Source: Haliea sp. (GTDB lineage Bacteria; Pseudomonadota; Gammaproteobacteria; Pseudomonadales; Halieaceae). Taken from it: DNA of 33,466 nt. This document shows positions 47 through 33,462 of the stretch, one piece after another (position 1 is the stretch's first letter; the number at the start of each line of letters is the position of its first letter). Made by a program: the position numbers and the translations under genes. The stretch covers positions 1 to 33,466 of the forward strand of contig JAACFI010000007.1 of the NCBI GenBank assembly GCA_009937575.1, written 5' to 3'. Below the pieces are notes generated by a model. The model made no database searches, was not told the DNA's origin, and saw nothing but the letters and a program-made list of their open reading frames with translations.

Positions 47-2290
47 TCAATTCCCCCGGGAAAGCTGCTGATACAACTGCTGATAACCCCGATTCCCCGG
101 CGCCAGCTCGGTCAATTTCCTGGCGTACTCCACAGCCTGCTCGCGCCGTCCCAGTTCCGCGCTGTAATTGGCCAGTGCCAGCAGCACGTCCTGGTCCGCC
201 GGTACCTGGCGCAGCAGGCGTTGTAACTGGCTGATGGCTTCCGCGGGTTGACCGAGGTCGTGCAGCGCGATGGCGTAGACGAAGCGATGGCGGGTGCCGC
301 TGTTTTCCAGTTCCGCTGCCTGCTTCAGGTAGGCCAGAGCCTTTTCCGGGTTGTCACTGCGCGTCTCCAGCAGCCCCAGGGCGTGCAGGGCGTTGCCATT
401 GTCCGGATCAACCTCCAGGGCGGCCAGCAATTGTGCCCGTGCCTCATCCTCCCGACCCTGGGCGCGCAGCAGGTCCGCCAGGTTGAGATAGGCGGGGACC
501 AGCTGTCGGTTCAGGTACAGGGCCTCGCGGTAGGCCTTTTCTGCCCCGGGCAGATCTCCGCGATTCACCAGGAAAACCCCGGTCTGCATCTGCGTTCCCG
601 GCATGTCTGAGTGCAGGTGCTGGATCTGCAGGTATTCATCGAAAAGACCCCTTAGTGCCGCGGCCTGTTCCGGACTGACCTGGTCCAGGGGCACCCCGGC
701 CAGCGAGGCGGCCACCTCCATGCGCACCGCGGTGACCTCGTCATTGATCAGTGGCTGCAACAGTTGCAGGCGCTGGTGCAGTGGCAGGAAATCGAGGGCG
801 CGCACGGTGCTGGCGCGCAGCATCGGGTCGTCGTCGTAAAGCAGGGTGGTAGCGCTCTGCAGGGCTTCTCGTCCGCCCGCCTGCCCCAGTACCTCCATCG
901 CGGTGGCGCGCCAGATCGGCGCGGCCTGCGGGTCGTTCGCCAACTGCGCCAGGGCTGGCACGCCGCGGCCATCGCCCTGTTCTACGCGCTGCAGGGCCCG
1001 GGCCGGGTGGCTGCCGGTATCGTGGAACCGCACGCCCCACTGGCGCAGGGCGTCCAGTGCCCAGGTGGCATCCCGGTCCGCATGGCACTGGTTGCAGGCA
1101 TTGGGGGTACCCATGACCACGCTCAGGTCAGGGCGGGGAATGCGCATACTGTGATCCCGGCGGGGATCCACCACCATGTAGGTCGCTTCCGGCATATGGC
1201 AGTTGGCACAGGAAGCCCCGTCAGATCCCGTCGGGTGGTGATGGTGCTGTTCGCTGTCGTAGCGCTCCGGCTTGTGGCACTGGGCGCAGACGCCGTTGCC
1301 CGAAGCGCGCAGTGACAGGCTGTGGGGCTCGTGGCAGTTGCTGCAGACGACACCGGCCTGGTGCATCTTGCTCTGCAGGAATGAGCCGTACACGTAGACC
1401 TCGTCCCGGATCTGCCCGTCGTGGTAGTAGAGCGGCCAGCGGGGCAGGGACAGCCGGTGGGTATCCAGTAGCTCGGCCCCGTAGTGATAGCCCCCCAGAG
1501 TACCCCGGCGGGCGTGGCAGCGAGCGCAACTGTCCACCTGGGCGCGGGACTGCAGGGGTTCGCGGCGCCTTGCGATCGCTGCCTGCTCTGGAAAAGCCCA
1601 CTCTCCGCGCTGGGCCAGATCGGTGGGAAAACCGCCTCCGGGTACAGATCCCAGCGTATCCGCAGCGGCGAGTTCCAGGTGTTTTTCCCCCGGGCCATGG
1701 CAGGCTTCACAACCCACGTTGATTTCCTCGAAGGTGGTGGCGAAGCTGCGCTTCCCGGCGTCATAGTTCTTCTGCAGGTCGGTGCTGTGGCACTCGGCGC
1801 AGCGGGTATTCCAGTTCTGGTAGGGTCCCGTCCAGTGCAGGGGGTCCCGGTGATCGATAGATTCCTCCGGGTAGAGGTGAAACCAGCGCTGGCCTCCCTG
1901 CTCCGCGGGCCGGCTGTCCCAGGCGATACTCAGGGCCTGTAGTCGGCCGCGGGACAGGGGCAGCAGGTACTGCTGCAGTGGATAGACCCCGAATACATAA
2001 CTCACGGGAAAATCCGTCGGCTTGCCGTCTTCACCGTCGGTGCGCACCATGAATTTTTCGCCGTCGCGATAGAATCGGCTGGTCACCCCGTTGTAGGTGA
2101 ACAGGGCGTCGTCGAAGTTCCCCAGCACAGAGTCCTCCGTGGGTAACTGCATGGCGAGGTCGTGGTGGCTGCCGCGCCAGTCCCTGTACTGCTGCTGGTG
2201 GCAGTCTTTGCAGGCATCAGAGCCGGTAAAGCCCTGGGTGGCAGAGCTTATTAGCAGCGCCGCGAGGAAAACAAGCCGGGTAAAGTACAA
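47..2290 (-). CDS. Exported octahaem cytochrome c with HEAT-like and TPR repeats
   Basis: This 747-residue protein starts with a Sec-type signal peptide (about residues 1-22), so it should act in the periplasm or be surface exposed. Eight CxxCH haem-binding motifs are visible at about residues 27, 164, 194, 255, 316, 335, 361 and 399. Many extra His residues could be distal ligands, including an HHHHH run near 349-352. No CxxCK motif is present, so it is not a typical NrfA-like nitrite reductase. After the haem region come HEAT-like helices (about 410-590) and at least three TPR units (about 610-745), suggesting a protein-docking scaffold. Electron-transfer function is inferred; donor and acceptor are unknown. 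The only usable start in the frame is TTG at 2290, because an in-frame stop lies at 2321-2323, and no strong ribosome-binding site precedes it. It is transcribed away from the amidotransferase gene. Confidence 0.88.
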   Translation of the reverse strand: MYFTRLVFLAALLISSATQGFTGSDACKDCHQQQYRDWRGSHHDLAMQLPTEDSVLGNFDDALFTYNGVTSRFYRDGEKFMVRTDGEDGKPTDFPVSYVFGVYPLQQYLLPLSRGRLQALSIAWDSRPAEQGGQRWFHLYPEESIDHRDPLHWTGPYQNWNTRCAECHSTDLQKNYDAGKRSFATTFEEINVGCEACHGPGEKHLELAAADTLGSVPGGGFPTDLAQRGEWAFPEQAAIARRREPLQSRAQVDSCARCHARRGTLGGYHYGAELLDTHRLSLPRWPLYYHDGQIRDEVYVYGSFLQSKMHQAGVVCSNCHEPHSLSLRASGNGVCAQCHKPERYDSEQHHHHPTGSDGASCANCHMPEATYMVVDPRRDHSMRIPRPDLSVVMGTPNACNQCHADRDATWALDALRQWGVRFHDTGSHPARALQRVEQGDGRGVPALAQLANDPQAAPIWRATAMEVLGQAGGREALQSATTLLYDDDPMLRASTVRALDFLPLHQRLQLLQPLINDEVTAVRMEVAASLAGVPLDQVSPEQAAALRGLFDEYLQIQHLHSDMPGTQMQTGVFLVNRGDLPGAEKAYREALYLNRQLVPAYLNLADLLRAQGREDEARAQLLAALEVDPDNGNALHALGLLETRSDNPEKALAYLKQAAELENSGTRHRFVYAIALHDLGQPAEAISQLQRLLRQVPADQDVLLALANYSAELGRREQAVEYARKLTELAPGNRGYQQLYQQLSRGN

Positions 2291-3201: not shown

Positions 3202-3576
3202 CTAGTCGCCACGGACCTTGTTCTGCATGGATTCCAGGTAGTCGTCCAGTTCCTGGTCATTGGCAAACACGGCCATATCCGGCAGCGCCTTGAGAATTTC
3301 AAACACCTTGTCGATATGCGGTTTGCGATTGGCTGCTGCCAGTCGGTGCCCGGCCGCCTTGGTCTGTTTGGCGGCCTTGAAAATCACCCGCAGCCCCGCC
3401 GAACTGATGTAGTCCAGGTCCTTCATGTCCAGCACGGTGAGGTTCAGCCCCCGGGTAATCACCCGCTGCAGTTCCTGGTCAAATCCCGGCGCCGTATCGG
3501 TATTCAAGGCGCCGGCCAGGGCGACCCGGGCGATGGACTTGTCTTCATCGATGGTGACGGTGGTATTCAGTTCCAT
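3202..3576 (-). CDS. STAS-domain anti-sigma-factor antagonist
   Basis: This 124-residue single STAS domain protein resembles SpoIIAA/RsbV. The signature DLDYISSAGLR carries the expected phosphorylatable serine (Ser58 or Ser59). In partner-switching systems the dephosphorylated STAS protein binds an RsbW-type kinase or another target, and a PP2C phosphatase resets it. The gene lies 48 bp downstream of, and on the same strand as, a phosphatase with a fused RsbW-like domain, so the two are very likely partners. A good purine-rich ribosome-binding site (gaggggg) precedes the ATG. The final output, whether sigma factor, diguanylate cyclase or something else, is not encoded nearby. Confidence 0.9.
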   Translation of the reverse strand: MELNTTVTIDEDKSIARVALAGALNTDTAPGFDQELQRVITRGLNLTVLDMKDLDYISSAGLRVIFKAAKQTKAAGHRLAAANRKPHIDKVFEILKALPDMAVFANDQELDDYLESMQNKVRGD

Positions 3577-3624
3577 GTGGCGAGAGGCCCCCTCTTGACG
3601 CTGTCTATTGCGATCCGCAGCAGA

Positions 3625-5973
3625 TCAGGCGCTGTCGGTATCCAGTAATTTGACAACACGCAGAATATTGCCGCCGCCCTCGTGGCGGTAGCTCTGTTCA
3701 TCCGTGAGTTGCGTGATCAAGTGTACACCAAGTCCGCCGATCTCGGCAGATTCGATGTCGGCCCCGAGTTCAGATCGCTTGCCGTCGCGCAGGGGATCGA
3801 AGGCCACGCCCCGATCCGAGAACTCCATCGCCAGGGTGCTAGCGGAAATCGACAGGTCGAGCAGAACCTCGGAGCCGGCGGGCAATTCCCCGTACTTTTC
3901 TATGTTGGTACTGATCTCCTCGGCCACCAGCACCGTTTCCACGCTGACATCAGGGGCCAGTGCCTGCTCCTCGAGCGCCGTTTGCAGCCAGGTGATGACT
4001 CTCCCGGCCAGCCCCTCCCCGGCAGGGAAGACGCCTCTGGATGTTGATCGGGAATCGCCTTGGACCGGGAGTTCCAGCAGCAGTAGCGTGATGTCGTCGG
4101 ATTGTGGGGTATCGCCGGCGTGTTCGTCCACGGCGTCGAACAGCGCAGCGCCTGCCTGCTCCAGGGGAAGTGCGGCGCCATCACCAAACCCGCGGTTGAA
4201 TCGCTCCGGGCCGAACATCTGCGCTGCTTCATTGAAGGCCTCGTCGATGCCATCGGTGTAGATGGCCAGGCGATCGCCGAAGGCCAGCTGCACCTTGTTG
4301 CGCGGGAACTCCAGGCCAGGTGCCAGCCCCAGGGCGGGCCCGTCATCCTGCGGCAATACCCCGACACGAGCGTCTCGCAACAGGCTGGGCGGGGTGTGGC
4401 CGGCGCTGGCAAATTCCAGTTCGAGGTTGGCCAGGTCTACCACTCCCAGGAACAGGGTGACGAACATGCAGTTATCGTTGCCTGCCTCCAGGGCGTTGTT
4501 CAATTTTGCCAGGGCGGTCACGGGTGACTCCCCGGCGGCAAGCAGCTGTTGTATCAGGCTGGTGGCCTTGGCCATGAACAGGGCCGCTGGTACGCCCTTG
4601 TCCGACACGTCGCCGACGGCGATAAACAGCCGCTCGCCGGATTGCTGGTAGGTGTAGAGATCACCACCCACGGATTTTGCGGGTCTCACCCGGGCCCACA
4701 GGCTGTAGCCCTCGTGCTGTTCCAGCACCTCCCCACCCCCTGGCAGCAGGGACATCTGGATTTCACGCGCGGCCGCCAGCTCCCCCTCCAGGCGACTGCG
4801 GCTGGCAGTGGCGGTTTCCAGGTCGGAAATATAGGTTTTGAGGTCCCTGCGCATGGCGTCGAAAGACATCACCAGCTGGGCTATCTCGTCCTCGCCACGC
4901 ACAGTTGGCAGGGCGGTATCCAGTTTACCGCGGGCGATATTGTCACTGGCTCCCACCAGCACCGTCAGCGGGCGGGTGAGCCGCCTCGTCACCAGGTATA
5001 CCGCCAGGGCCATCAGTAGCAGGGTGACCAGGCCGATGACAGCCGTCCTGATCTGGTAGCGTCGCAGTGGGGCGGTTATTTCGTGTTCGGAATAGATCAT
5101 GCCCACCGGCCAACCGGTGGACTGCAGGGTATCCATCCTGATGACGCAGCGCCCGATGATATCCGGGCACTCGAGCTGGCGGGTCACGGCCTGGCCCGCC
5201 AGTGCAGACTGGAGCATGTCGCGCCAGGTGGGCAGGTCCACCGTGTCGGAGCGGGCGTCGGAGTAGTGCCGCATGATGTAGTCGGGATTGCGGCTGCTGA
5301 GAATGATACCGGTGCGGCTCAACAGCGTTGCGAAGCCGCTGTCGCCAAGGCGCAGCCGCCTCAGGTAGGCTCGCAGCTCGTCCAGGGGGACGTCCGCAGT
5401 GACCACAGCGTAGAGGAAACGCTCTCCCTGCGCACTGACGCGGAATACGGGCACCGCGAAGGTGGTCATCAGTGTTTCGCCACCGCCGCGATCAAAATAG
5501 GGTTCCACCCACACGGGTTTGCCGGCGTTTACCGCGTCCAGGTACCACGCCTGTTCCTGGTAGGCGTATTCCTCGGACGCCAGGTCCGCGTAGGTGAGTA
5601 TTCCGTCCCGGTGGAAATAGTAGGGCGCAAAACCTCCCGGCGAATCCGTGATCACCGGGTTGAGTGCGATGGTGGAGCCGTAGATATCGGCGTTGTTCTC
5701 GACGATATCCTTGAGCATTTGCTCCAGGCCTGCGTGGGTGTAATCGCGCTGTTCGAGAATGCGCGCCAGGAACAGGGTGGAGCCTTCCACGCCGTCCAGC
5801 CAGTTTTCCATGTCGATTATGGCGGCGCGAATGGTTTCCTGGGATTCGTTTTTCAGGCGTTCAAGGATTTCCTCCCGGGACAGGCGGTAGTCCAGCCACA
5901 TGCCGACGCCGAGAATCAGTGCCGAACAGAGACTGAGAACCGCGATCAGCCGTGTGGCAATACTGTTTTTCAC
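3625..5973 (-). CDS. Membrane sensor PP2C (SpoIIE) phosphatase fused to RsbW-like HATPase
   Basis: The 782-residue protein has TM1 at about residues 8-28, a periplasmic dCache-like sensor domain (about 30-305), TM2 (about 309-330), a HAMP linker (about 330-385) and a short coiled coil. A SpoIIE-type PP2C phosphatase follows (about 420-635), with metal-binding aspartates in GGDLY, GDVSDKG, DGIDEA and DDITLL. The C-terminal GHKL ATPase (about 650-775) has an N-box (EEISTNIEKYG) and glycine-rich lids (SDRGVAFDP, GGLGVHL), as in RsbW/SpoIIAB. It therefore appears to combine the phosphatase and the anti-sigma kinase of a partner switch in one ligand-sensing membrane protein. HsbR of Pseudomonas is a similar fusion but has a receiver domain instead of a periplasmic sensor. 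The start is GTG at 5973. The gene follows the glyoxalase-like gene by 15 bp and precedes the STAS gene. Confidence 0.93.
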   Translation of the reverse strand: MKNSIATRLIAVLSLCSALILGVGMWLDYRLSREEILERLKNESQETIRAAIIDMENWLDGVEGSTLFLARILEQRDYTHAGLEQMLKDIVENNADIYGSTIALNPVITDSPGGFAPYYFHRDGILTYADLASEEYAYQEQAWYLDAVNAGKPVWVEPYFDRGGGETLMTTFAVPVFRVSAQGERFLYAVVTADVPLDELRAYLRRLRLGDSGFATLLSRTGIILSSRNPDYIMRHYSDARSDTVDLPTWRDMLQSALAGQAVTRQLECPDIIGRCVIRMDTLQSTGWPVGMIYSEHEITAPLRRYQIRTAVIGLVTLLLMALAVYLVTRRLTRPLTVLVGASDNIARGKLDTALPTVRGEDEIAQLVMSFDAMRRDLKTYISDLETATASRSRLEGELAAAREIQMSLLPGGGEVLEQHEGYSLWARVRPAKSVGGDLYTYQQSGERLFIAVGDVSDKGVPAALFMAKATSLIQQLLAAGESPVTALAKLNNALEAGNDNCMFVTLFLGVVDLANLELEFASAGHTPPSLLRDARVGVLPQDDGPALGLAPGLEFPRNKVQLAFGDRLAIYTDGIDEAFNEAAQMFGPERFNRGFGDGAALPLEQAGAALFDAVDEHAGDTPQSDDITLLLLELPVQGDSRSTSRGVFPAGEGLAGRVITWLQTALEEQALAPDVSVETVLVAEEISTNIEKYGELPAGSEVLLDLSISASTLAMEFSDRGVAFDPLRDGKRSELGADIESAEIGGLGVHLITQLTDEQSYRHEGGGNILRVVKLLDTDSA

Positions 5974-5988: not shown

Positions 5989-6429
5989 TTACCAGCTGCC
6001 GGTATTTTCCATCGATGCCCAGGGTTCCTGCGGTGGCAGTGCTTCCCCCGCCTGCAGCAGTTCGATAGAGATCCCATCCGGTGAGCGAATGAAAGCCATG
6101 TGGCCATCCCGTGGAGGGCGGTTGATAGTGACCCCCTTATCCATCAGCTGCTGGCACAGGGCATAGATGTTGTCGACCCGATAGGCCAGGTGGCCGAAAT
6201 TGCGCCCGCCGTCATAGCTCTCGGAATCCCAGTTCCAGGTGATTTCCAGCAGCGGGCTGTGCCCCTCCCTGGCGCGTTCTGCGTCATCTGGGGCGGCCAG
6301 GAATACCAGGGTGAAGCGCCCTGCCTCGCTGTCATAGCGGTTGACCTCTACCAGGCCGAGTTTATTGCAGTAAAAATCCAGTGTTTCGTCCAGGTCGCTG
6401 GCGCGGACCATGGTGTGCAGGTAGTTCAT
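5989..6429 (-). CDS. VOC-family protein, glyoxalase I (lactoylglutathione lyase)-like
   Basis: This 146-residue protein follows the glyoxalase I pattern through both beta-alpha-beta-beta-beta modules. The four metal ligands of GloA appear conserved: His5 (LHTMVRASD), Glu62 (LLEITWNW), His80 (FGHLAYRVDN) and Glu123 (SIELLQ). GloA isomerises the hemithioacetal of methylglyoxal and glutathione to S-lactoylglutathione in the cytosol. The protein carries an extra C-terminal tail of about 18 residues compared with the short GloA type, and the middle loop is longer, so a related VOC lyase with another substrate is possible. A ggaag ribosome-binding site precedes the ATG. It is the first gene of the minus-strand run that contains the partner-switch phosphatase. 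Confidence 0.85.
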   Translation of the reverse strand: MNYLHTMVRASDLDETLDFYCNKLGLVEVNRYDSEAGRFTLVFLAAPDDAERAREGHSPLLEITWNWDSESYDGGRNFGHLAYRVDNIYALCQQLMDKGVTINRPPRDGHMAFIRSPDGISIELLQAGEALPPQEPWASMENTGSW

Positions 6430-6449: not shown

Positions 6450-6478
6450 AAAACTAAAACGGGGTGCATTGCACCCCG
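6450..6478 (-). terminator. Intrinsic terminator after the flavoprotein gene
   Basis: On the minus strand a perfect 9-bp inverted repeat (CGGGGTGCA / TGCACCCCG, 6460-6478) is followed directly by TTTTAGTTTT (6450-6459). It lies between the flavoprotein stop (6533) and the glyoxalase-like start (6429). It should therefore separate the two transcription units. Confidence 0.72.
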
Positions 6479-9188: not shown

Positions 9189-10280
9189 GTGACCCTGCGC
9201 CCGGATACGGAGGACTACCGCGCCCTGTTTCTCGGCGACGTGCCGATGATGGATATGCGCGCCCCTGCGGAGTTCGAGCACGGTTCTTTCCCTACGGCGC
9301 ACAGCCTGCCACTGATGACCGACGACGAACGCGCTCAGGTGGGTATCTGTTACAGGCAGCACGGGCAGGCCGCCGCCATTGAATTGGGCCAGCAGCTGGT
9401 TTCGGGCGACGTGAAGGCCAGGCGACTGCAAGCCTGGTGCGACTTTGCCCGAAAGCACCCCGGTGGCTACCTTTACTGCTTTCGCGGCGGCCTGCGCTCC
9501 CAGACCGTGCAGCAGTGGCTTCGGGATGAGGGCGTCGACTACCCGCTGGTCCTGGGCGGTTACAAGGCCATGCGGCGTTTCCTGCTGGAGGAACTGGAGC
9601 GTTCGGTAGGGCGGGCGGAGTTCGTCCTGATAAGCGGCAAGACCGGCACCGGCAAAACCCGCGTGATTGCGCGGCTGTCTGCCAGCGTCGACCTGGAGGC
9701 GCTGGCCAACCACCGGGGTTCCACCTTCGGCCAGTTGCCGCTGCCCCAGCCCAGCCAGATTGATTTCGAGAACGCCCTCAGTATTGCCCTGATGAAACAG
9801 CTGGAGCAGGGGAAAGGCCCGATCTTCCTGGAGGACGAGGGCCGCCTGATCGGCAGGCTGGCACTGCCCGGGGTCCTGCGCCAGAAGATGAAGAATGCCC
9901 CTATGCTGGTGGTGGAGCAGAGCCTGGAGCAGCGCGTGGATGTGGTGATCGAGGACTACGTGCTGGATCTCGGCAAGCGCTACACAGAGCTACACGGGGA
10001 CGATGGCGCGCGCAGGCACAGCGAAAAACTGCAGGATGATCTGCTGCGTATCCGAAAACGGCTGGGGGGAGAACGGCATCAGCAGGTCAGTGCGGTGATG
10101 GCGGGGGCCTTTGCCGCCCAGTGGCGCGACGGCGACCTGTCCCTGCACCGGGAGTGGATACGCTTCCTGCTGGAAAACTATTACGACCCCATGTACGACT
10201 ACCAGCTGGCCCAGCGGAAGGGCAACCAGTTGTTCAGTGGTGACCGGGATGCCGTGGTCGCCCGGGCGGAGCAGTTCTAG
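9189..10280 (+). CDS. mnmH: tRNA 2-selenouridine synthase (SelU/YbbB)
   Basis: The 363-residue protein has an N-terminal rhodanese domain with the active cysteine at residue 97 (YLYCFRGGLRSQT) and a C-terminal P-loop domain with Walker A GKTGTGKT (about 150-157). The family replaces sulfur with selenium in 2-thiouridine at the wobble position of tRNA-Lys, Glu and Gln, using selenophosphate and passing through a geranylated intermediate. The start is GTG at 9189, 3 bp after the rdgC stop, with a cggag ribosome-binding site inside the end of rdgC. The selD gene follows with a 1-bp gap, which directly couples production and use of selenophosphate. Confidence 0.96.
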   Translation: MTLRPDTEDYRALFLGDVPMMDMRAPAEFEHGSFPTAHSLPLMTDDERAQVGICYRQHGQAAAIELGQQLVSGDVKARRLQAWCDFARKHPGGYLYCFRGGLRSQTVQQWLRDEGVDYPLVLGGYKAMRRFLLEELERSVGRAEFVLISGKTGTGKTRVIARLSASVDLEALANHRGSTFGQLPLPQPSQIDFENALSIALMKQLEQGKGPIFLEDEGRLIGRLALPGVLRQKMKNAPMLVVEQSLEQRVDVVIEDYVLDLGKRYTELHGDDGARRHSEKLQDDLLRIRKRLGGERHQQVSAVMAGAFAAQWRDGDLSLHREWIRFLLENYYDPMYDYQLAQRKGNQLFSGDRDAVVARAEQF

Positions 10281-10281
10281 G

Positions 10282-12492
10282 GTGCAGCGCCAGGCAGAAA
10301 TTCACCGGGACCTGGTGCTTGTGGGGGGTGGGCACAGTCACGCTCTGGCCTTGCGCATGCTGGCGATGCAGCCCATCGAGGGCCTGCGCATCACCCTGGT
10401 TTCCCCCTCCAGCCACACGCCTTATTCCGGCATGCTGCCCGGACTGGTGGCGGGACACTACAGCTTCGAACAGGCCCATATCGACCTGGCCCGCCTGTGC
10501 CAGTGGGCGGGCGCGCGCTTTATCGCCGCCGAAGTGACGGCCCTCGATCCCGAGGAGCGATGCCTGTCCGTGGCGGGACGGCCTGCCATCTACTATGACC
10601 TGGTCAGCATCGATATCGGCTCCCAGCCGGAACTGGATACGGTGCCCGGTGCCCGTTCCCATGCGGTACCGGTAAAGCCGGTGTCGGGACTGTGGCAGCG
10701 CTGGCAGGAGCTCCGGGGCCGGGTGCTGGCGCGGGCAGCCGGCGATGACCATCGCATTGCGGTTGTCGGCGGCGGCGCCGGCAGCGTGGAGCTGGCCATG
10801 GCCATGGCCAACAGCCTGGCAAGCGAAACCATCGCTATCGACCTGTGGTGTGGCGCGCCAGAAATCCTGCAGAACTATAATGCCCGGGCCCGAAGGTCGG
10901 TGATGGAGGCACTGGCGGAGCAGGGTGTGCAGGTGCACCTTGATGCCCGCGTGGAGCGGGTGGAGGGAGATGCCCTGGTGTTTGCAGGTGGCGAGCACGC
11001 CATCTACGACGATCTGTTCTGGTGTACCGGCGCGGCGGCCGCCCCCTGGATCGCCGCCAGTGGCCTGCAGAGCGATCCCCTGGGCTTCCTCGCGGTCCAC
11101 GATACCTTGCAGGCGCTGGGCGACGAGTGGGTATTCGGCGCCGGGGATATCGCGGTCCAGGTTGAGCACCCCCGGCCCAAGGCGGGCGTATATGCGGTGC
11201 GCCAGGGGCCCGTACTGGCCCACAACCTGCGCGCCAGTCTGCTGGGTACGCCCCTCAAGGAGCACCGTCCCCAGCAACGCTTCCTGTCCCTGGTGTCCCT
11301 GGGTGGGCGCAGGGCGACGGCGGACAAGGGACCGTTTGCCGCCACCGGGGCCTGGGTGTGGCGCTGGAAGGACCGGATCGACCGGGAGTTCATGGGGCGC
11401 TTTGAGCAGTTGCCGTCGCCGATGGCTTCGGGGAAAGCTGCCCGGCTGCCCGAACATAACGACACCGAACAGGCCCATTGCGGTGGCTGCGGGGCCAAGG
11501 TCGGTGGCGACGCACTGTCCAGTGTACTGCGGGCCCTGGCCCGGGAGTATCCGGATCACTGCAGTAGCGACGGCGACGATGCCAGTCCGATTCCGGCCGC
11601 TGCGGGTACAACCATAATACAAAGCCTGGATATTCTGCGCGCCATGGTGGACGATCCATGGCTGATGGGGCGTATCGCTGCCAACCACGCCCTCAGTGAT
11701 CTCTACGCTTGCGGCGTTCGTCCGGTATCCGCCCTCGCGGCGGTCGGCCTGCCGTTTTCCGCGCCCGAGATCCAGCGGCGGGAGTTGCAGCAGTTGCTGT
11801 CCGGCGCCCTGCACGAATTTTCTGCTGTGGACTGCCGCCTCACAGGTGGTCACAGCACCCAGGGACCGGAGTTGACCCTGGGTTTCGCCGTGAACGGAGT
11901 TCCCATGCAACCAGCGCTTGCTACCCTGGGTAAACGCGGCCTGCGTCCGGGGGATAGCCTGATTTTGACCAAGCCCCTTGGCACGGGCGTGCTGTTCGCA
12001 GCCCATATGCAGCTGAGGGCAGATGGACGCCATATTGCGGCTGCGGTAGAGCAGATGCTGCTTAGCAACCTGTCGGCGGCGGAACTGGCGCTTGCCTTCG
12101 GGGCCAGTGCCGCCACCGATATCACTGGCTTTGGCCTGCTCGGGCATCTGCTGGAGATGCTGGGAGAGGAGTACGGCGCACAACTGGATGTGGCCGCCCT
12201 GCCATTGATGCCCGGCGCGTTGGAGGCGTCGCAGGCGGGAGTTTCCAGCACCATGCACGAGGCCAATGCCCGCGGTGCGGACGAGTTGCTGGACCGGGGG
12301 GCGGCAGACCCGGCGCGAGTGCAGATGCTGTTTGACCCGCAGACCAGCGGTGGCCTGCTGGTTTCAGTTGCCGCGGACCGGGCACAAGCCTTGTGCGATG
12401 CGCTGCATCAACGCGGTTGTGAACAGGCGTCGATCATCGGTACGGTACAGGAACGCGGGGCGACGGGTGAGTCGGTGGTGCGACTGCGCTAG
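10282..12492 (+). CDS. selD: Fused FAD/NAD(P) oxidoreductase-selenide, water dikinase (SelD)
   Basis: The 736-residue protein is two enzymes joined. Residues 1-380 are a type II NADH dehydrogenase-like flavoprotein, with FAD motif LVLVGGGHSH (about 11-20), NAD motif IAVVGGGAGSVE (about 159-170) and a second FAD motif VFGAGDIAV (about 284-292). Residues 398-736 are SelD, with the catalytic loop GGCGAKVGG (Cys403, Lys406), aspartates of DGDDASPIP and SLDILRAMVDDP for ATP and metal, and LTGGHST plus ATDITGFGLLGHLLE. SelD makes selenophosphate from selenide and ATP. The oxidoreductase may reduce selenium species for it, but this is inference. The active residue is Cys, not selenocysteine. The start is GTG at 10282, 1 bp after the mnmH stop. 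No selA or selB is present in the window. Confidence 0.95.
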   Translation: MQRQAEIHRDLVLVGGGHSHALALRMLAMQPIEGLRITLVSPSSHTPYSGMLPGLVAGHYSFEQAHIDLARLCQWAGARFIAAEVTALDPEERCLSVAGRPAIYYDLVSIDIGSQPELDTVPGARSHAVPVKPVSGLWQRWQELRGRVLARAAGDDHRIAVVGGGAGSVELAMAMANSLASETIAIDLWCGAPEILQNYNARARRSVMEALAEQGVQVHLDARVERVEGDALVFAGGEHAIYDDLFWCTGAAAAPWIAASGLQSDPLGFLAVHDTLQALGDEWVFGAGDIAVQVEHPRPKAGVYAVRQGPVLAHNLRASLLGTPLKEHRPQQRFLSLVSLGGRRATADKGPFAATGAWVWRWKDRIDREFMGRFEQLPSPMASGKAARLPEHNDTEQAHCGGCGAKVGGDALSSVLRALAREYPDHCSSDGDDASPIPAAAGTTIIQSLDILRAMVDDPWLMGRIAANHALSDLYACGVRPVSALAAVGLPFSAPEIQRRELQQLLSGALHEFSAVDCRLTGGHSTQGPELTLGFAVNGVPMQPALATLGKRGLRPGDSLILTKPLGTGVLFAAHMQLRADGRHIAAAVEQMLLSNLSAAELALAFGASAATDITGFGLLGHLLEMLGEEYGAQLDVAALPLMPGALEASQAGVSSTMHEANARGADELLDRGAADPARVQMLFDPQTSGGLLVSVAADRAQALCDALHQRGCEQASIIGTVQERGATGESVVRLR

Positions 12493-15705: not shown

Positions 15706-16735
<1,030 letters not shown>

Positions 16736-16863
16736 ATGTTTTCGATAGTCGCGCACTCCGGGTGACTGCATTTGATTAGATTTATTGCTATAAAAATCAA
16801 GTAGATAGCTAGAAAATAGGCCTGAAGACAACATGCCCGTAATCAACCGGCAGGAGGTGTCAT

Positions 16864-18003
16864 ATGCAGGCCATAAAGTTGCTTTCCCGGCGCAGTCTCG
16901 ACGATCTGGAAGACGAAATCATCTCCCTGGCGGGTCGTATCAACGCGTCCGAGTATGAGTTTCTGGTCCTGGTGCGCGAGTTCGATCTGCGGCAGGGCTG
17001 GAAGCCCTATCATTTCAACAATTGCGCCGAATGGCTGAACATGAAATGCGGCATTGCGCCCGGTACTGCCCGGGAGAAAATCCGGGTGGCGAACGCGCTG
17101 TTCGACCTGCCGCAGACCGCTGGGGCGATGCAGTCGGGCCGACTGTCCTATTCCAAGGTCCGCGCGCTCAGCCGCATTGCCACACCCGATACCGAGAAGC
17201 GTCTGCTGGATTACGCAATTCCCGCTACCGCCCTGCAGGTGGATGACCACTGCAGGCGTTTGCGCAATGTGCAGCGGGATCTGTCGGGCGAAGATGCACG
17301 GCGGCTTCACCGGGCACGCTCTTTGACCCGCTCGTTGCACGGGGATGGCAGCATGACGATCTCGGTGGAGTTGCCCCGGGAGAGTGGAGAACTGGTGATG
17401 AAGGCGCTGGAGATGGCCCTGTCTATGCTCGAGTCCGATGGGGATGAGCCGGAGTGCGATGATCCAGTCGACGAGGAAACACTGCAGCAGAAGCAGGCCG
17501 ATGCGCTGGTCGCTGTGGCCAGGGGATATCTGTCGGGCTGTGAGGGCAAGCGCAACTGTACCGCGGATCACTACCAGGTGGTGGTGCATGTGGATGAAAA
17601 AGCACTGCGTGGCGAGCCCGATGAGAATTCCAAAAGTGATCTGCCGATAGAGACGGTTCGGCGCCTGTGCTGTGACGGCGCAGTAGTGCCTGTGACCGGG
17701 GATGACAATGGCGATCCACTCAACGTGGGCCGGAAGCACCGCGTGGTGCAGCCCGCGCTTAAAAGGGCTTTGCTGGCCCGGGATAAGTGCTGTCGGTATC
17801 CCGGGTGCACGCATGAGAAATGGCTGGACGCGCATCACGTGGTGCACTGGGCAGATGGCGGTGAGACCACGCTGGGGAATACAATTCTGCTCTGCTCACG
17901 ACACCATCGGCTGTTACATGAAGGTGCGTTTGATATCAGAAGCGGGCCTGGGGGAGACTGGCTTTTCAGGCGGAGTGCCAACGCACCGGCTGCAGTTACA
18001 TGA
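16864..18003 (+). CDS. DUF222-type HNH endonuclease
   Basis: The 379-residue protein has a helical N-terminal DUF222/13E12-type region (about residues 25-290). A C-terminal HNH nuclease module (about 305-353) follows, with zinc-type cysteines CCRYPGC, the core DAHHVVHWADGG, and N-T-I-L-L-CSRHHRLLHEG. Such genes are frequent, often multicopy, in Actinobacteria and in Halieaceae-like gammaproteobacteria; their role is unproven, and links to mobile elements have been suggested. A strong caggaggtgt ribosome-binding site lies before the ATG. The 127-bp AT-rich gap upstream follows the sulfatase remnant. No intron or recombinase is attached. Confidence 0.88.
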   Translation: MQAIKLLSRRSLDDLEDEIISLAGRINASEYEFLVLVREFDLRQGWKPYHFNNCAEWLNMKCGIAPGTAREKIRVANALFDLPQTAGAMQSGRLSYSKVRALSRIATPDTEKRLLDYAIPATALQVDDHCRRLRNVQRDLSGEDARRLHRARSLTRSLHGDGSMTISVELPRESGELVMKALEMALSMLESDGDEPECDDPVDEETLQQKQADALVAVARGYLSGCEGKRNCTADHYQVVVHVDEKALRGEPDENSKSDLPIETVRRLCCDGAVVPVTGDDNGDPLNVGRKHRVVQPALKRALLARDKCCRYPGCTHEKWLDAHHVVHWADGGETTLGNTILLCSRHHRLLHEGAFDIRSGPGGDWLFRRSANAPAAVT

Positions 18004-20319: not shown

Positions 20320-20395
20320 TGGTGCCCAGAGACAGAATCGAACTGCCGACACGGGGATTTTCAATCCCCTGCTCTACCGACTGAGCTATCTGGGC
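20320..20395 (-). tRNA. tRNA-Phe (anticodon GAA)
   Basis: The minus strand folds into a complete 76-nt cloverleaf with acceptor GCCCAGA/TCTGGGC and encoded CCA. The D arm is GCTC-AGTCGGTA-GAGC, the anticodon stem GGGGA/TCCCC carries loop TTGAAAA (anticodon GAA at 20360-20362), and the T arm loop is TTCGATT. It closely resembles Escherichia coli tRNA-Phe as remembered. It has its own promoter at 20423-20451 and is followed by a duplicated 3' end. Confidence 0.97.
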
Positions 20396-30998: not shown

Positions 30999-32414
30999 TC
31001 AGACTTCCAGCTGGAGATCCCTGATCTTGCGGGTCAGGGTATTACGACCCCAGCCCAGCAGTTCCGCGGCATCGCGCTTGCGGCCCTGGGAGTGCTGCAG
31101 GGCCACCTCGATCATGACCTTTTCAAAGGCCGGCACCGCGTCCTGCAGGATGTGGTGCTTGCCCTGCACCAGTTCATTGCGGGCCCAGCGGTAGAGCAGG
31201 TCGCGCCAGTCTGCACTGTCGCTCTCCGCCAGCCCGGTTTCCACCTTGCCCAATTCCGGTGGCAGGTCACTCAGGTGCACTTCCCGGCCGGAGGCCATTA
31301 CTGTGATCCAGCGGCAGGTGTTCTCCAGCTGACGCACGTTGCCCGGCCACTCCAGGGAGGTGAGGAATTCCTCGGTTTCAGGTAGCAGTATCTTCGTCTC
31401 CCCGCCCAGTTCCTCGGCCGCCTGCGCGAAGAAGTACTGCATCAGCCGGGGAATATCCTCGCGCCGTTCTGACAGCCTGGGAATATGTATACGGATCACG
31501 TTCAGCCGATGGAACAGGTCCTCCCGGAAATCTCCCCGGCGTACCAGCTCCTCCAGGTCCTGATGGGTGGCAGCGATGATGCGCACGTCTACAGTCACCG
31601 GGGTGTGGCCGCCGACGCGATAGAACTCGCCATCCGCCAGTACCCTCAGCAGCCTGGTCTGGGTTTCGGCAGGCATGTCGCCAATCTCGTCCAGGAACAG
31701 GGTACCGCCATCGGCCTGTTCGAAGCGCCCCTCCCGTTTACTGTTGGCGCCGGTAAAGGCGCCCTTCTCGTGGCCAAAGAGTTCCGATTCCATCAGGTCC
31801 CTGGGGATGGCGGCCATGTTGAGTGCGATGAAGGGCTGCGGGGCGCGGGGACTGTGCCGGTGCAGGGCGTGGGCCACCAGTTCCTTGCCGGTACCGGACT
31901 CGCCGTTGATCAGCACGGTGATATTGCTGTGAGCCAGGCGACCGATGGCGCGAAATACCTCCTGCATGGCAGGTGCTTCGCCGATGATTTCTGTCTGGGG
32001 TAACTCCTCCAGGACAGGGCTGACCCCCTGCTTTTCCCTGGACTGGGCCAGGGCCCGTTCGGTGATGGCAATAACCTCATCCAGGTCGAAGGGTTTGGGC
32101 AGGTACTCGAAGGCACCGCGCTGGTAGGATTCCACCGCACTGTCCAGGTCCGAGTGGGCGGTAGTGATGATAACGGGCAGCTCGGGGTGACTGTCGCTGA
32201 TACTCGAAAGCAGGGCCAGGCCATCGGTACCCGGCATGCGGATATCGCTGATGATGACATCCGGTTGCTCGCTGGCGATCCGCTGCAGGAGCTGGTCGGC
32301 ATCGGCAAAGCTCTCGTTGGCGATCCCCGCCTGGTTGAGTGCTCTCTCCAGTACCCAGCGGATCGAACTGTCATCGTCCACCACCCAGACTTTAGCCTGT
32401 CTGTGCATCTTCAT
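30999..32414 (-). CDS. ntrC: Nitrogen regulator NtrC (sigma-54 activator)
   Basis: The 471-residue response regulator has a receiver domain (about residues 6-125) with phospho-acceptor Asp57 ([11 protein letters not shown]). An AAA+ sigma-54 interaction domain (about 150-380) follows, with Walker A GESGTGKE and the GAFTGA loop that contacts sigma-54. A Fis-type helix-turn-helix ends the protein ([20 protein letters not shown]). It activates nitrogen-scavenging genes under nitrogen limitation. The frame is open to 32537, but the family starts at [18 protein letters not shown] at 32414 and at 32408 are both possible, and both overlap the end of ntrB, implying coupled translation. Confidence 0.96.
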
Positions 32415-33462
32415 ATTCCATTGGTAGGTAAATAGTGAATCGGGTCTTTTCCGGGCAGCTCTCGCACTCCAGCAGGCCGCCGTGCCGGTTGACGATGGCC
32501 TGGGCAATCGACAGCCCGAGGCCGGTGCCGTCGGCACGCCCGGTTACCATGGGCGCAAAAATCGCGTGGACCATGTCTTCCGCAATACCAGGTCCGTTGT
32601 CGATGATGTCCACCCGGCAGACCAGTCGATGCCGCTGGGTGCCCACCGTGAACTGCCGCTGGGACCGGGTGCGCAGGGTGATCTCGCATTGCTCGGTGTG
32701 CAGAGCGGCCTGCAGCGCGTTGCGCACGATGTTCAGCACCGCCTGGATCAACTGGGCCCGGTCGGCGGGAAATTCTGGCAGGCTCGGGTCGTAATCCCGC
32801 AGGATGACCGCCCGGTTATCCGATTCCGCTGTAATCAGGTTGCGCACGTGCTCGAGCACTTCATGAATATTGAGCGGCTGCCGGTCCAGCTGCTGGTTGG
32901 GGCCCAACAGGCGGTCCACCAGGTCGCGCAGGCGATCTGCCTCGCGGATAATGACCCGGGTGTATTCTGCCAGGCTCTCGTCCGGTAACTCCCTGGCCAG
33001 CAATTGCGCCGCGCCCCGCACCCCGCCCAGTGGGTTCTTGATCTCGTGGGCGAGCCCACGAATTACCGCACGGGTGGTTTCCTGGGCGTGCATCAGGCCC
33101 TCCTCGCGGCTGATTTTCAGCAGCCGGTCCACCGGTTGCATCTCCACCACCAGGGTGATGCCGCAGGGATTGCCAGTGATCGGGGTGATCATCAGGTCAA
33201 CGTGGATCTCCTGGCCGGACAACAGGGTCAGGGGCATGCCCCTGCGGGCCATGGGACTGTTGCTGGCAAGTACCTGCTCCAGGCCGCCCAACCAGTTCGC
33301 CGGCTGCAGTAACAGCTGCGCGGCGTGGGCACCGATACAGCGGTGCTCGGAGGTTTCCAGTAGCGCCTGACCCGCGGCGTTGACGGCGATCACCCGCAGG
33401 TCGTCATCCAGCGCTATGATTCCCGTGCTGATATTGTCCAGTATGTCCTGGTCCTGCTGCAT
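32392..33462 (-). CDS. ntrB: Nitrogen sensor kinase NtrB (possibly 5'-truncated at window edge)
   Basis: The 356-residue histidine kinase has a PAS domain (about residues 5-115). A dimerisation/phosphoacceptor helix follows with His139 in GLAHEIKNPLGGVRG, then a HATPase domain (about 235-350) with the N-box IVRNALQAA and glycine boxes DNGPGI and GTGLGLSIA. There is no transmembrane segment, which fits the cytosolic NtrB that responds to PII protein. It phosphorylates and dephosphorylates NtrC. The visible ATG is 4 bases from the window edge, so a slightly longer N-terminus cannot be excluded. Its 3' end overlaps the ntrC start by 23 bp. Confidence 0.95.
   Translation of the reverse strand: MQQDQDILDNISTGIIALDDDLRVIAVNAAGQALLETSEHRCIGAHAAQLLLQPANWLGGLEQVLASNSPMARRGMPLTLLSGQEIHVDLMITPITGNPCGITLVVEMQPVDRLLKISREEGLMHAQETTRAVIRGLAHEIKNPLGGVRGAAQLLARELPDESLAEYTRVIIREADRLRDLVDRLLGPNQQLDRQPLNIHEVLEHVRNLITAESDNRAVILRDYDPSLPEFPADRAQLIQAVLNIVRNALQAALHTEQCEITLRTRSQRQFTVGTQRHRLVCRVDIIDNGPGIAEDMVHAIFAPMVTGRADGTGLGLSIAQAIVNRHGGLLECESCPEKTRFTIYLPMEYEDAQTG

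Follow-up and report, generated by a model that had tools for sequence, protein, structure and literature searches.

The stretch of DNA analysed here, referred to as the window, comprises 33,466 nt of Haliea sp. (Halieaceae; assembly GCA_009937575.1, contig JAACFI010000007.1, positions 1 to 33,466 of the forward strand) and contains a pair of genes predicted to encode a membrane receptor with kinase and phosphatase domains and its STAS partner. Both genes, and every feature of the locus given below by its position in the window, lie on the minus strand. The receptor gene (3625..5973) is an open reading frame (ORF) for a protein of 782 residues, and the STAS gene (3202..3576), coding for a single-domain protein of 124 residues, the predicted substrate, starts 48 bp downstream. 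The original prediction had described a 782-residue chain joining a dCache-like sensor, a HAMP domain, a PP2C phosphatase and an RsbW-like ATPase, with a STAS gene at that distance, and the reading frames and Pfam domains confirm this description.

From its N-terminus, the receptor presents a first transmembrane segment (residues ~3-29; 5887..5967), a predicted dCache/PDC sensor (residues ~35-300; 5074..5871), a second transmembrane segment (residues ~306-333; 4975..5058), a HAMP domain (residues 327-379; 4837..4995), a helical linker (residues 380-433; 4675..4836), a SpoIIE-type PP2C phosphatase domain (residues 446-635; 4069..4638) and an RsbW/SpoIIAB-like ATPase, the predicted serine kinase (residues 655-775; 3649..4011). 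The transmembrane segments were delineated by Kyte-Doolittle hydropathy only, and the sensor should be periplasmic, since these two hydrophobic stretches lie on either side of it. Pfam matched the sensor with MCP-like_PDC_1 (PF22673; residues 83-201, 1.7e-24) and dCache_1 (PF02743; residues 35-228, 2.9e-16), and the cytoplasmic part with HAMP (PF00672; 6.3e-12), SpoIIE (9.6e-47) and HATPase_c_2 (7.6e-16), all above their curated cut-offs. The HATPase_c_2 match, which had been set in advance as the refutation test of the original prediction and was expected within residues 650-775, falls at 655-775, and Foldseek matches of the receptor model include SpoIIAB and RsbW. Pfam returned no Response_reg and no PAS match on the receptor, and the SiaA, RsbW and SpoIIE equivalog models scored far under their own cut-offs. 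The linker, between HAMP and PP2C, is the best-conserved stretch of the chain (mean 0.68 identity to the window residue over 32 loci). Its presumed role derives from the proposal that sensor domains, HAMP included, activate PPM phosphatases through coiled-coil linkers (PMC12143880).

The sequence motifs expected of both predicted enzymes recur across the loci compared. The conservation set comprises 32 loci including the window; the broken-contig genomes G009, G014 and G046 fall outside it, and L054-L056 were dropped as duplicates of L026-L028. In at least 31 of these 32 loci, window included, six PP2C aspartates are identical (D438, which lies just before the Pfam domain, D455, D458, D574, D626 and D627), in agreement with the original reading of a phosphatase with all visible metal aspartates. 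We take these six residues to be the metal ligands known for the PP2C family. The kinase domain shows the same degree of identity in its N, G1 and G2 boxes (E686, N690, D720, G722, G746, G747 and G749). The partner protein matches Pfam STAS at residues 9-106 (3.6e-13) and the anti-sigma factor antagonist model TIGR00377 with 59.1 bits, above its cut-off of 53.45. Its residues S58 and S59 are serine in 32/32 loci, and S59 (codon 3400..3402), directly preceded by S58, aligns on the serine of RsbV in PDB 6m36; it is hence the predicted phospho-acceptor, and the phospho-serine anticipated in this protein finds its place. At the level of sequence, the pair thus displays the general features of an RsbU/RsbW/RsbV-type switch: a PP2C domain with its aspartates, a HATPase_c_2 domain with its boxes and a STAS protein with its serine.

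A survey of 140 genomes of the family revealed that sensor (E <= 1e-60) and STAS (E <= 1e-15) occur in an identical set of 35 genomes, and that at these thresholds neither is found alone in any. With relatives at 39-71% identity in these 35 genomes, the 782-residue frame is no chance ORF. The two genes are adjacent on one contig in 34 of the 35, and in the exception (G046) the contig ends inside the sensor. The domain content and this co-occurrence support, as far as domains go, the notion of a single membrane-bound sensor that combines kinase and phosphatase domains and has a STAS protein of its own. A whole-protein search of a public genome collection returned five loci, of which one matched by its PP2C domain alone; named relatives there include Halioglobus sp. 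(Halieaceae) and unclassified Gammaproteobacteria.

Further evidence for the association comes from three of the 32 loci (G043, G113 and G115, bearing three genus labels), in which sensor and STAS are fused in frame. Pfam resolves these fused orthologs into dCache/PDC-HAMP-PP2C-HATPase-STAS on a single chain of 920-929 residues. The STAS start codon is retained in all three, with a purine-rich stretch ahead of it, so that the fusions could also yield the STAS part as a separately translated product. The fusion in G043 is probably recent, given that its congeners G044 and G045 have separate genes.

The surroundings of the pair outline a two-gene cassette. A glyoxalase I-like gene (5989..6429; assigned by Pfam, with TIGR00068 at 109.7 bits, slightly short of the cut-off, 120) lies 15 bp upstream of the receptor gene and is probably co-transcribed with it. 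Of the 31 loci with sufficient upstream sequence, 28 have this gene immediately ahead of the receptor gene, at 6-47 bases counted from its last aligned codon; neighbours were counted by tblastn, and gaps taken from the last aligned codon include stops, so that the 15 bp of the window read 18. Between this gene and a flavin adenine dinucleotide (FAD) oxidoreductase gene, a pattern scan picked out a terminator-like hairpin (6460..6478), which weakly suggests that the transcription unit begins after it; the scan is weak, with seven sites against a mean of 3.8 (sd 2.1) in shuffles of the region. On the other side, a convergent glutamine amidotransferase gene follows the pair in 31 of the 32 loci, the exception being cut by a contig end. 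Among 30 loci retrieved, 18 lack the sensor, further matches lying outside this sample, and in 13 of these 18 the glyoxalase and amidotransferase genes are 9-121 bases apart with neither sensor nor STAS between them; four others have 259-879 bases between the flanks, and one has no second flank in the retrieved stretch. One genome with an empty site (G042) shares its genus label with G043-G046, which carry the system. These observations indicate that the pair is gained or lost alone, with no dedicated target gene along, and hence that its target must be encoded elsewhere in the genome. No recurrent fourth gene was detected in the 32 loci, where the recurrent neighbours are the glyoxalase, the amidotransferase and a cytochrome gene. 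The latter, at 47-2290 (-) in the window, encodes a multihaem cytochrome c-TPR protein (partial NCBIfam matches) and lies downstream of the STAS/amidotransferase region in 26/32 loci. The glyoxalase gene was considered as a clue to the signal and dropped: it is present in 117/140 family genomes and keeps its place where the sensor is absent, so that this neighbourhood is mostly inherited rather than specific to the system.

Kinase and phosphatase on one chain are already known from HsbR, CrsR, SypE and Rv1364c, and the window pair, as judged from its domains, belongs with the HsbR/HsbA, CrsR/CrsA, SypE/SypA and Rv1364c switches as a one-component variant built on a membrane receptor. The original prediction had named HsbR/HsbA as the nearest analogue, sensing through a receiver domain, and this is a fair comparison: HsbR/HsbA of Pseudomonas aeruginosa and CrsR/CrsA of Shewanella oneidensis are described as combining, in one polypeptide, a PP2C domain and, after it, a serine kinase of the anti-sigma type, and as controlling in trans targets encoded elsewhere (PMC6482189). 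As with HsbR and CrsR, there is one single-domain STAS partner, with its gene directly downstream in the window. The input of HsbR is a cytoplasmic receiver fed by phosphotransfer, whereas the window receptor has a periplasmic dCache domain with HAMP. Rv1364c of Mycobacterium tuberculosis also places PP2C before the kinase on one chain, and its RsbU-RsbW part (3ke6) is the best PDB match in a Foldseek search with the full-length AlphaFold model (E 8.8e-15), followed by RssB, the SiaA PP2C domain (6k4e) and, further down, SpoIIAB and RsbW; this model was built from five sequences. The three fused orthologs carry a C-terminal STAS domain as Rv1364c does (PMC9138534), but Rv1364c combines a PAS input with STAS on the chain, in contrast to the membrane receptor and separate STAS protein of the window. 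SypE/SypA of Vibrio fischeri likewise consists of one protein with kinase and phosphatase and one STAS protein as downstream component (PMC10120452), yet SypE has the order kinase-REC-PP2C and belongs to the syp polysaccharide locus, whereas the window kinase is C-terminal and there is no REC domain. SiaABCD of P. aeruginosa is a partner switch with a SiaA-type PP2C and an output on a diguanylate cyclase (PMC7647112, PMC8457831); unlike the window pair, it is reported there to have a separate kinase, SiaB, a partner, SiaC, phosphorylated on threonine 68, and a co-transcribed SiaD. The occurrence of dCache domains on Ser/Thr phosphatases is already in print, and we found no account of a dCache-HAMP-PP2C-HATPase receptor with a STAS partner in the open-licence PubMed Central literature.

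Phylogenetic trees, comprising 15 of the 32 window-family loci and rooted at the midpoint, place the receptor apart from HsbR. In the HATPase tree, the HsbR-like clade of family genomes (100/99) contains no window rows, and the window family forms its own clade (90/82). In the PP2C tree, a group of 24 rows (94/86) unites the window family with dCache-HAMP relatives, not all of which have a fused kinase, and includes no HsbR-like rows; other dCache relatives (G506, G629, G487, G525, G411 and G393) group with HsbR-like PP2Cs, with weak support (13 rows, 88/67). Given these separate groupings, a recent exchange of input on an HsbR does not seem to be the origin of the window receptor; across the wider group, inputs and catalytic portions have probably been recombined on more than one occasion.

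Relatives were also identified outside the family, in a search covering the order (293 genomes) and the class (369 genomes) in which the best three and two candidates per genome, respectively, were scored, so that the counts are lower bounds. Matches extending through the kinase were found in at least eight genomes (G187, G193, G277, G300, G431, G487, G506 and G629), all eight of which were matched by the kinase profile. For seven of them analysed with Pfam, PP2C and HATPase_c_2 exceeded their cut-offs in 7/7, and HAMP was present in six (not G431) and Cache/PDC in six (not G487). Among the eight, a STAS gene was recognised beside the receptor in G193, G277, G300 and G506, and not in the other four. 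Two split relatives have the same domain order as the window receptor, but with the kinase on its own chain, a separate HATPase_c_2 gene following the dCache-HAMP-PP2C gene 11 bp downstream (G206) or with a 4-bp overlap (G170); no STAS gene was recognised beside either split pair. In another genome (G525), a STAS gene, a gene for an NMT1-like periplasmic binding protein and a dCache-HAMP-PP2C relative lie in a row (L104:7643-10896), and the binding protein may act as ligand carrier for the sensor of that relative.

The sensor itself conserves W143, D194, C269 and C276 in at least 31/32 loci. In the dCache_1AA motif, an arginine stands two residues before a tryptophan (R126 and W128 in PctA; PMC10104139, PMC11245519). 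The corresponding position in the window sensor, two before W143, is occupied by Q141, with arginine in only 6/32 loci, which makes an amino-acid sensor of this type unlikely. The shared aromatic residues and D194 would fit part of the motif of amine sensors (dCache_1AM), and the ligand may be an amine or another compound. Two neighbouring genes were recorded and not used as ligand evidence. One, in G055, encodes a TauD dioxygenase (Pfam 1.1e-68) and immediately precedes the sensor gene, with a gene of the same cluster in G039; the other is an aldehyde dehydrogenase gene (L095:10947-12308) located 38 bp after STAS on the same strand in G277, which does not directly follow STAS in G193 or G300, both sharing the genus label of G277.

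From these data we propose that a small molecule or a binding protein would occupy the periplasmic dCache domain, and that the signal would travel through HAMP and the helical linker to tip the balance between the two enzymatic domains of that chain, PP2C and HATPase. Residue S59 of the STAS protein encoded downstream would be phosphorylated by the HATPase domain and dephosphorylated by the PP2C domain, and the phosphorylation state would determine whether the STAS protein remains with the receptor or engages a conserved target whose gene lies elsewhere in the genome. The output would hence run through the STAS protein, as with HsbA, SypA and SiaC, and not mainly through a receptor sequestering a sigma factor. 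We infer here the kinase and phosphatase activities of the receptor, S59 as the site, the direction of the switch and the output through the STAS protein. The core switch alone is very likely; a one-component transmembrane partner switch that includes STAS-borne output is probable, and we hold it with moderate confidence. More tentatively, the receptor may write and erase a phosphoserine on a small STAS messenger that acts alone on a conserved non-sigma target, with no phosphorelay, receiver or dedicated effector gene, as a two-gene cassette in which kinase, phosphatase and STAS, once separate, would have been joined stepwise on one membrane chain.

The case for STAS-borne output stems from a contrast in conservation. 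Averaged over all pairs of 31 loci (L046, in which STAS is cut by the contig end, was left out), identity is 72% for STAS, 56% for PP2C, 45% for HATPase and 43% for dCache. STAS identity exceeds HATPase identity in 465/465 pairs, with a mean gap of 27 points, and in the 96 pairs at 55-59% PP2C identity the means are 72.6 for STAS and 44.8 for HATPase. HsbR/HsbA-like systems of the same family of genomes, in which STAS is not much more conserved than its kinase, served as control: six of nine HsbR-like matches were used (L110 gave no STAS match, and L111 and L116 were unused), and between the two lineages of these six loci HATPase identity is 47-50%, STAS 48-50% and PP2C 55-58%. A kinase domain holding a conserved sigma factor should not be fast-evolving, so that a contrast in which STAS is the slowest part and HATPase among the fastest, with a far smaller gap in the control, speaks for a STAS protein with a conserved second partner. 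Output through the STAS protein, perhaps non-sigma, is thus favoured, on the basis of conservation rather than of gene neighbourhood.

The original prediction had reached a non-sigma output from the lack of a nearby sigma factor gene. The observation largely stands, as no sigma factor was found by Pfam or NCBIfam among the window proteins scanned, a set smaller than all window ORFs, and the gene at 30999-32537 encodes a sigma-54 activator, not a sigma factor. The deduction drawn from it fails, because CrsR/CrsA and HsbR/HsbA are reported to regulate RpoS post-translationally and in trans (PMC6482189), and rpoS is encoded in the same genome, on another contig.

Several observations weigh against a non-sigma, STAS-borne output or against the structural underpinning of the switch. 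RpoS is commoner in genomes with the system (32/35 vs 46/105, p = 3.6e-7, with relatedness not removed), and outside the small-genome genus g21, taken as handles G056-G112, of which those listed bear that label, the figures are 32/35 vs 35/48 (p = 0.048), as would suit a sigma-S output; the association is driven largely by g21, and as evidence it is weak. The HsbR/HsbA-like control amounts in effect to two lineages, and in it STAS lies above HATPase in 12/15 pairs, by 1-9 points within lineages. The full-length AlphaFold model is weak (mean predicted local distance difference test score, pLDDT, of 48; HATPase part alone ~80, dipping to 38-48 at residues 731-750), and its match to 3ke6 has a root-mean-square deviation of 9.4 and a TM-score of 0.54 by target length. 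The sensor modelled alone reaches a mean pLDDT of 41 and is unusable, and no ligand was readable from either model. A sequence search of the PDB with the kinase domain alone retrieved RsbW at only E 0.58, and the kinase has a shorter loop behind its N box than HsbR-like kinases do.

The strongest alternative is a membrane-bound counterpart of CrsR, in which the HATPase domain itself would retain a sigma factor (RpoS being the likeliest) at the membrane until displaced by dephosphorylated STAS, and the STAS protein would have no other target. CrsR is described as sequestering RpoS through its anti-sigma/kinase domain, and HsbR as interacting with RpoS (PMC6482189); the presence of RpoS in the window genome and in the other genomes counted above, together with the absence of a target gene accompanying the pair, would fit this explanation. 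It predicts, however, the reverse of the conservation observed, with HATPase among the least conserved parts and STAS the most, and a gap far beyond that of the HsbR-like control. In addition, the HATPase domain lies outside the HsbR-like clade, and no RpoS was detected at cut-off in three genomes with the system (G009, 66% complete; G049, 87%; G138, 100%). We consider this alternative unlikely, if the most serious one.

Less probable still, and doubtful in our view, is a receptor acting as phosphatase only, whose HATPase domain would have lost kinase activity or would sense ATP in a regulatory role, and whose STAS partner would be phosphorylated by another kinase, such as the HsbR-like protein of the window genome. 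The title of a 2008 paper cited in PMC9138534 reports loss of kinase activity for Rv1364c, and the window genome does encode a second PP2C-HATPase protein with its own STAS: contig C136 (L050:103-6448) carries a hybrid histidine kinase with Hpt, a REC-PP2C-HATPase protein and a STAS protein, an HsbR/CrsR-like set. REC-PP2C-HATPase proteins occur in 9/140 family genomes at a strict threshold (E <= 1e-80), six of which have the window system, and are commoner with it (6/35 vs 3/105, p = 0.008). Being found in only 6/35 system genomes at that threshold, an HsbR-like protein is nonetheless unlikely as the general kinase, and the receptor keeps its own N-, G1- and G2-box residues in at least 31/32 loci, which argues against a dead domain. 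After the C136 set comes a gene for an ion channel that has a cyclic-nucleotide-binding domain, and contig C288 of the same genome (L051:5361-7133) encodes a REC-PP2C-STAS chain in which no kinase domain was found.

An output linked to FlgM, which is reported to be bound by HsbA in Pseudomonas (PMC6482189), is very improbable and, barring a divergent FlgM, largely refuted for the window genome. FlgM gave no match in the window genome, in the two others of its genus or, in total, in 21 of the 35 system genomes, among them G027, a single contig that is 100% complete, with the proviso that a short FlgM could escape the search; nor is FlgM enriched with the system (14/35 vs 47/105, p = 0.70). Least probable of all is a fusion of SiaA with SiaB in a SiaABCD system. 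The dCache-HAMP-PP2C part resembles SiaA, in which a membrane dCache sensor is also present, and 6k4e is among the top PDB matches. The SiaA profile NF038263, however, reaches 95.3 bits over residues 308-633, from before HAMP through PP2C, against a cut-off of 700, a score at which membership fails, though the receptor might still work in a similar way. The kinase is of HATPase_c_2 type, the STAS partner passes the anti-sigma antagonist model, and the recurrent neighbours are the glyoxalase, amidotransferase and cytochrome genes, SiaC and SiaD not having been searched by name across the whole genome.

Further features were noted elsewhere in the window. An ORF at 10111-12492 (+) fuses a pyridine nucleotide-disulphide oxidoreductase to an AIR synthase-type domain, which we take to be SelD-like, and adjoins one at 9189-10280 with a weak AAA_16 match in Pfam, presumably tRNA selenouridine synthase-like; together they suggest selenium metabolism. 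A DUF222-HNH endonuclease-like gene, of a kind mostly known from actinobacteria, lies at 16864-18003 (+), ~2.3 kb from tRNA-Phe (20320-20395), and the ORF at 15996-16736 (+) matches only the C-terminal part of a sulfatase model (204-301 of 301) and is possibly a truncated gene.

Of the Gram-negative switches considered above, HsbR and SypE take their input through a receiver, and SiaA/SiaB divide phosphatase and kinase between two proteins. Should the proposed one-component partner switch hold true, an extracellular ligand would set STAS phosphorylation directly through one membrane chain. The target of SypA is described as likewise open (PMC10120452), and the minimal two-gene form of the system, the existence of close relatives lacking it and its single-chain fusions would make it tractable for asking where the output of a Gram-negative STAS protein goes.

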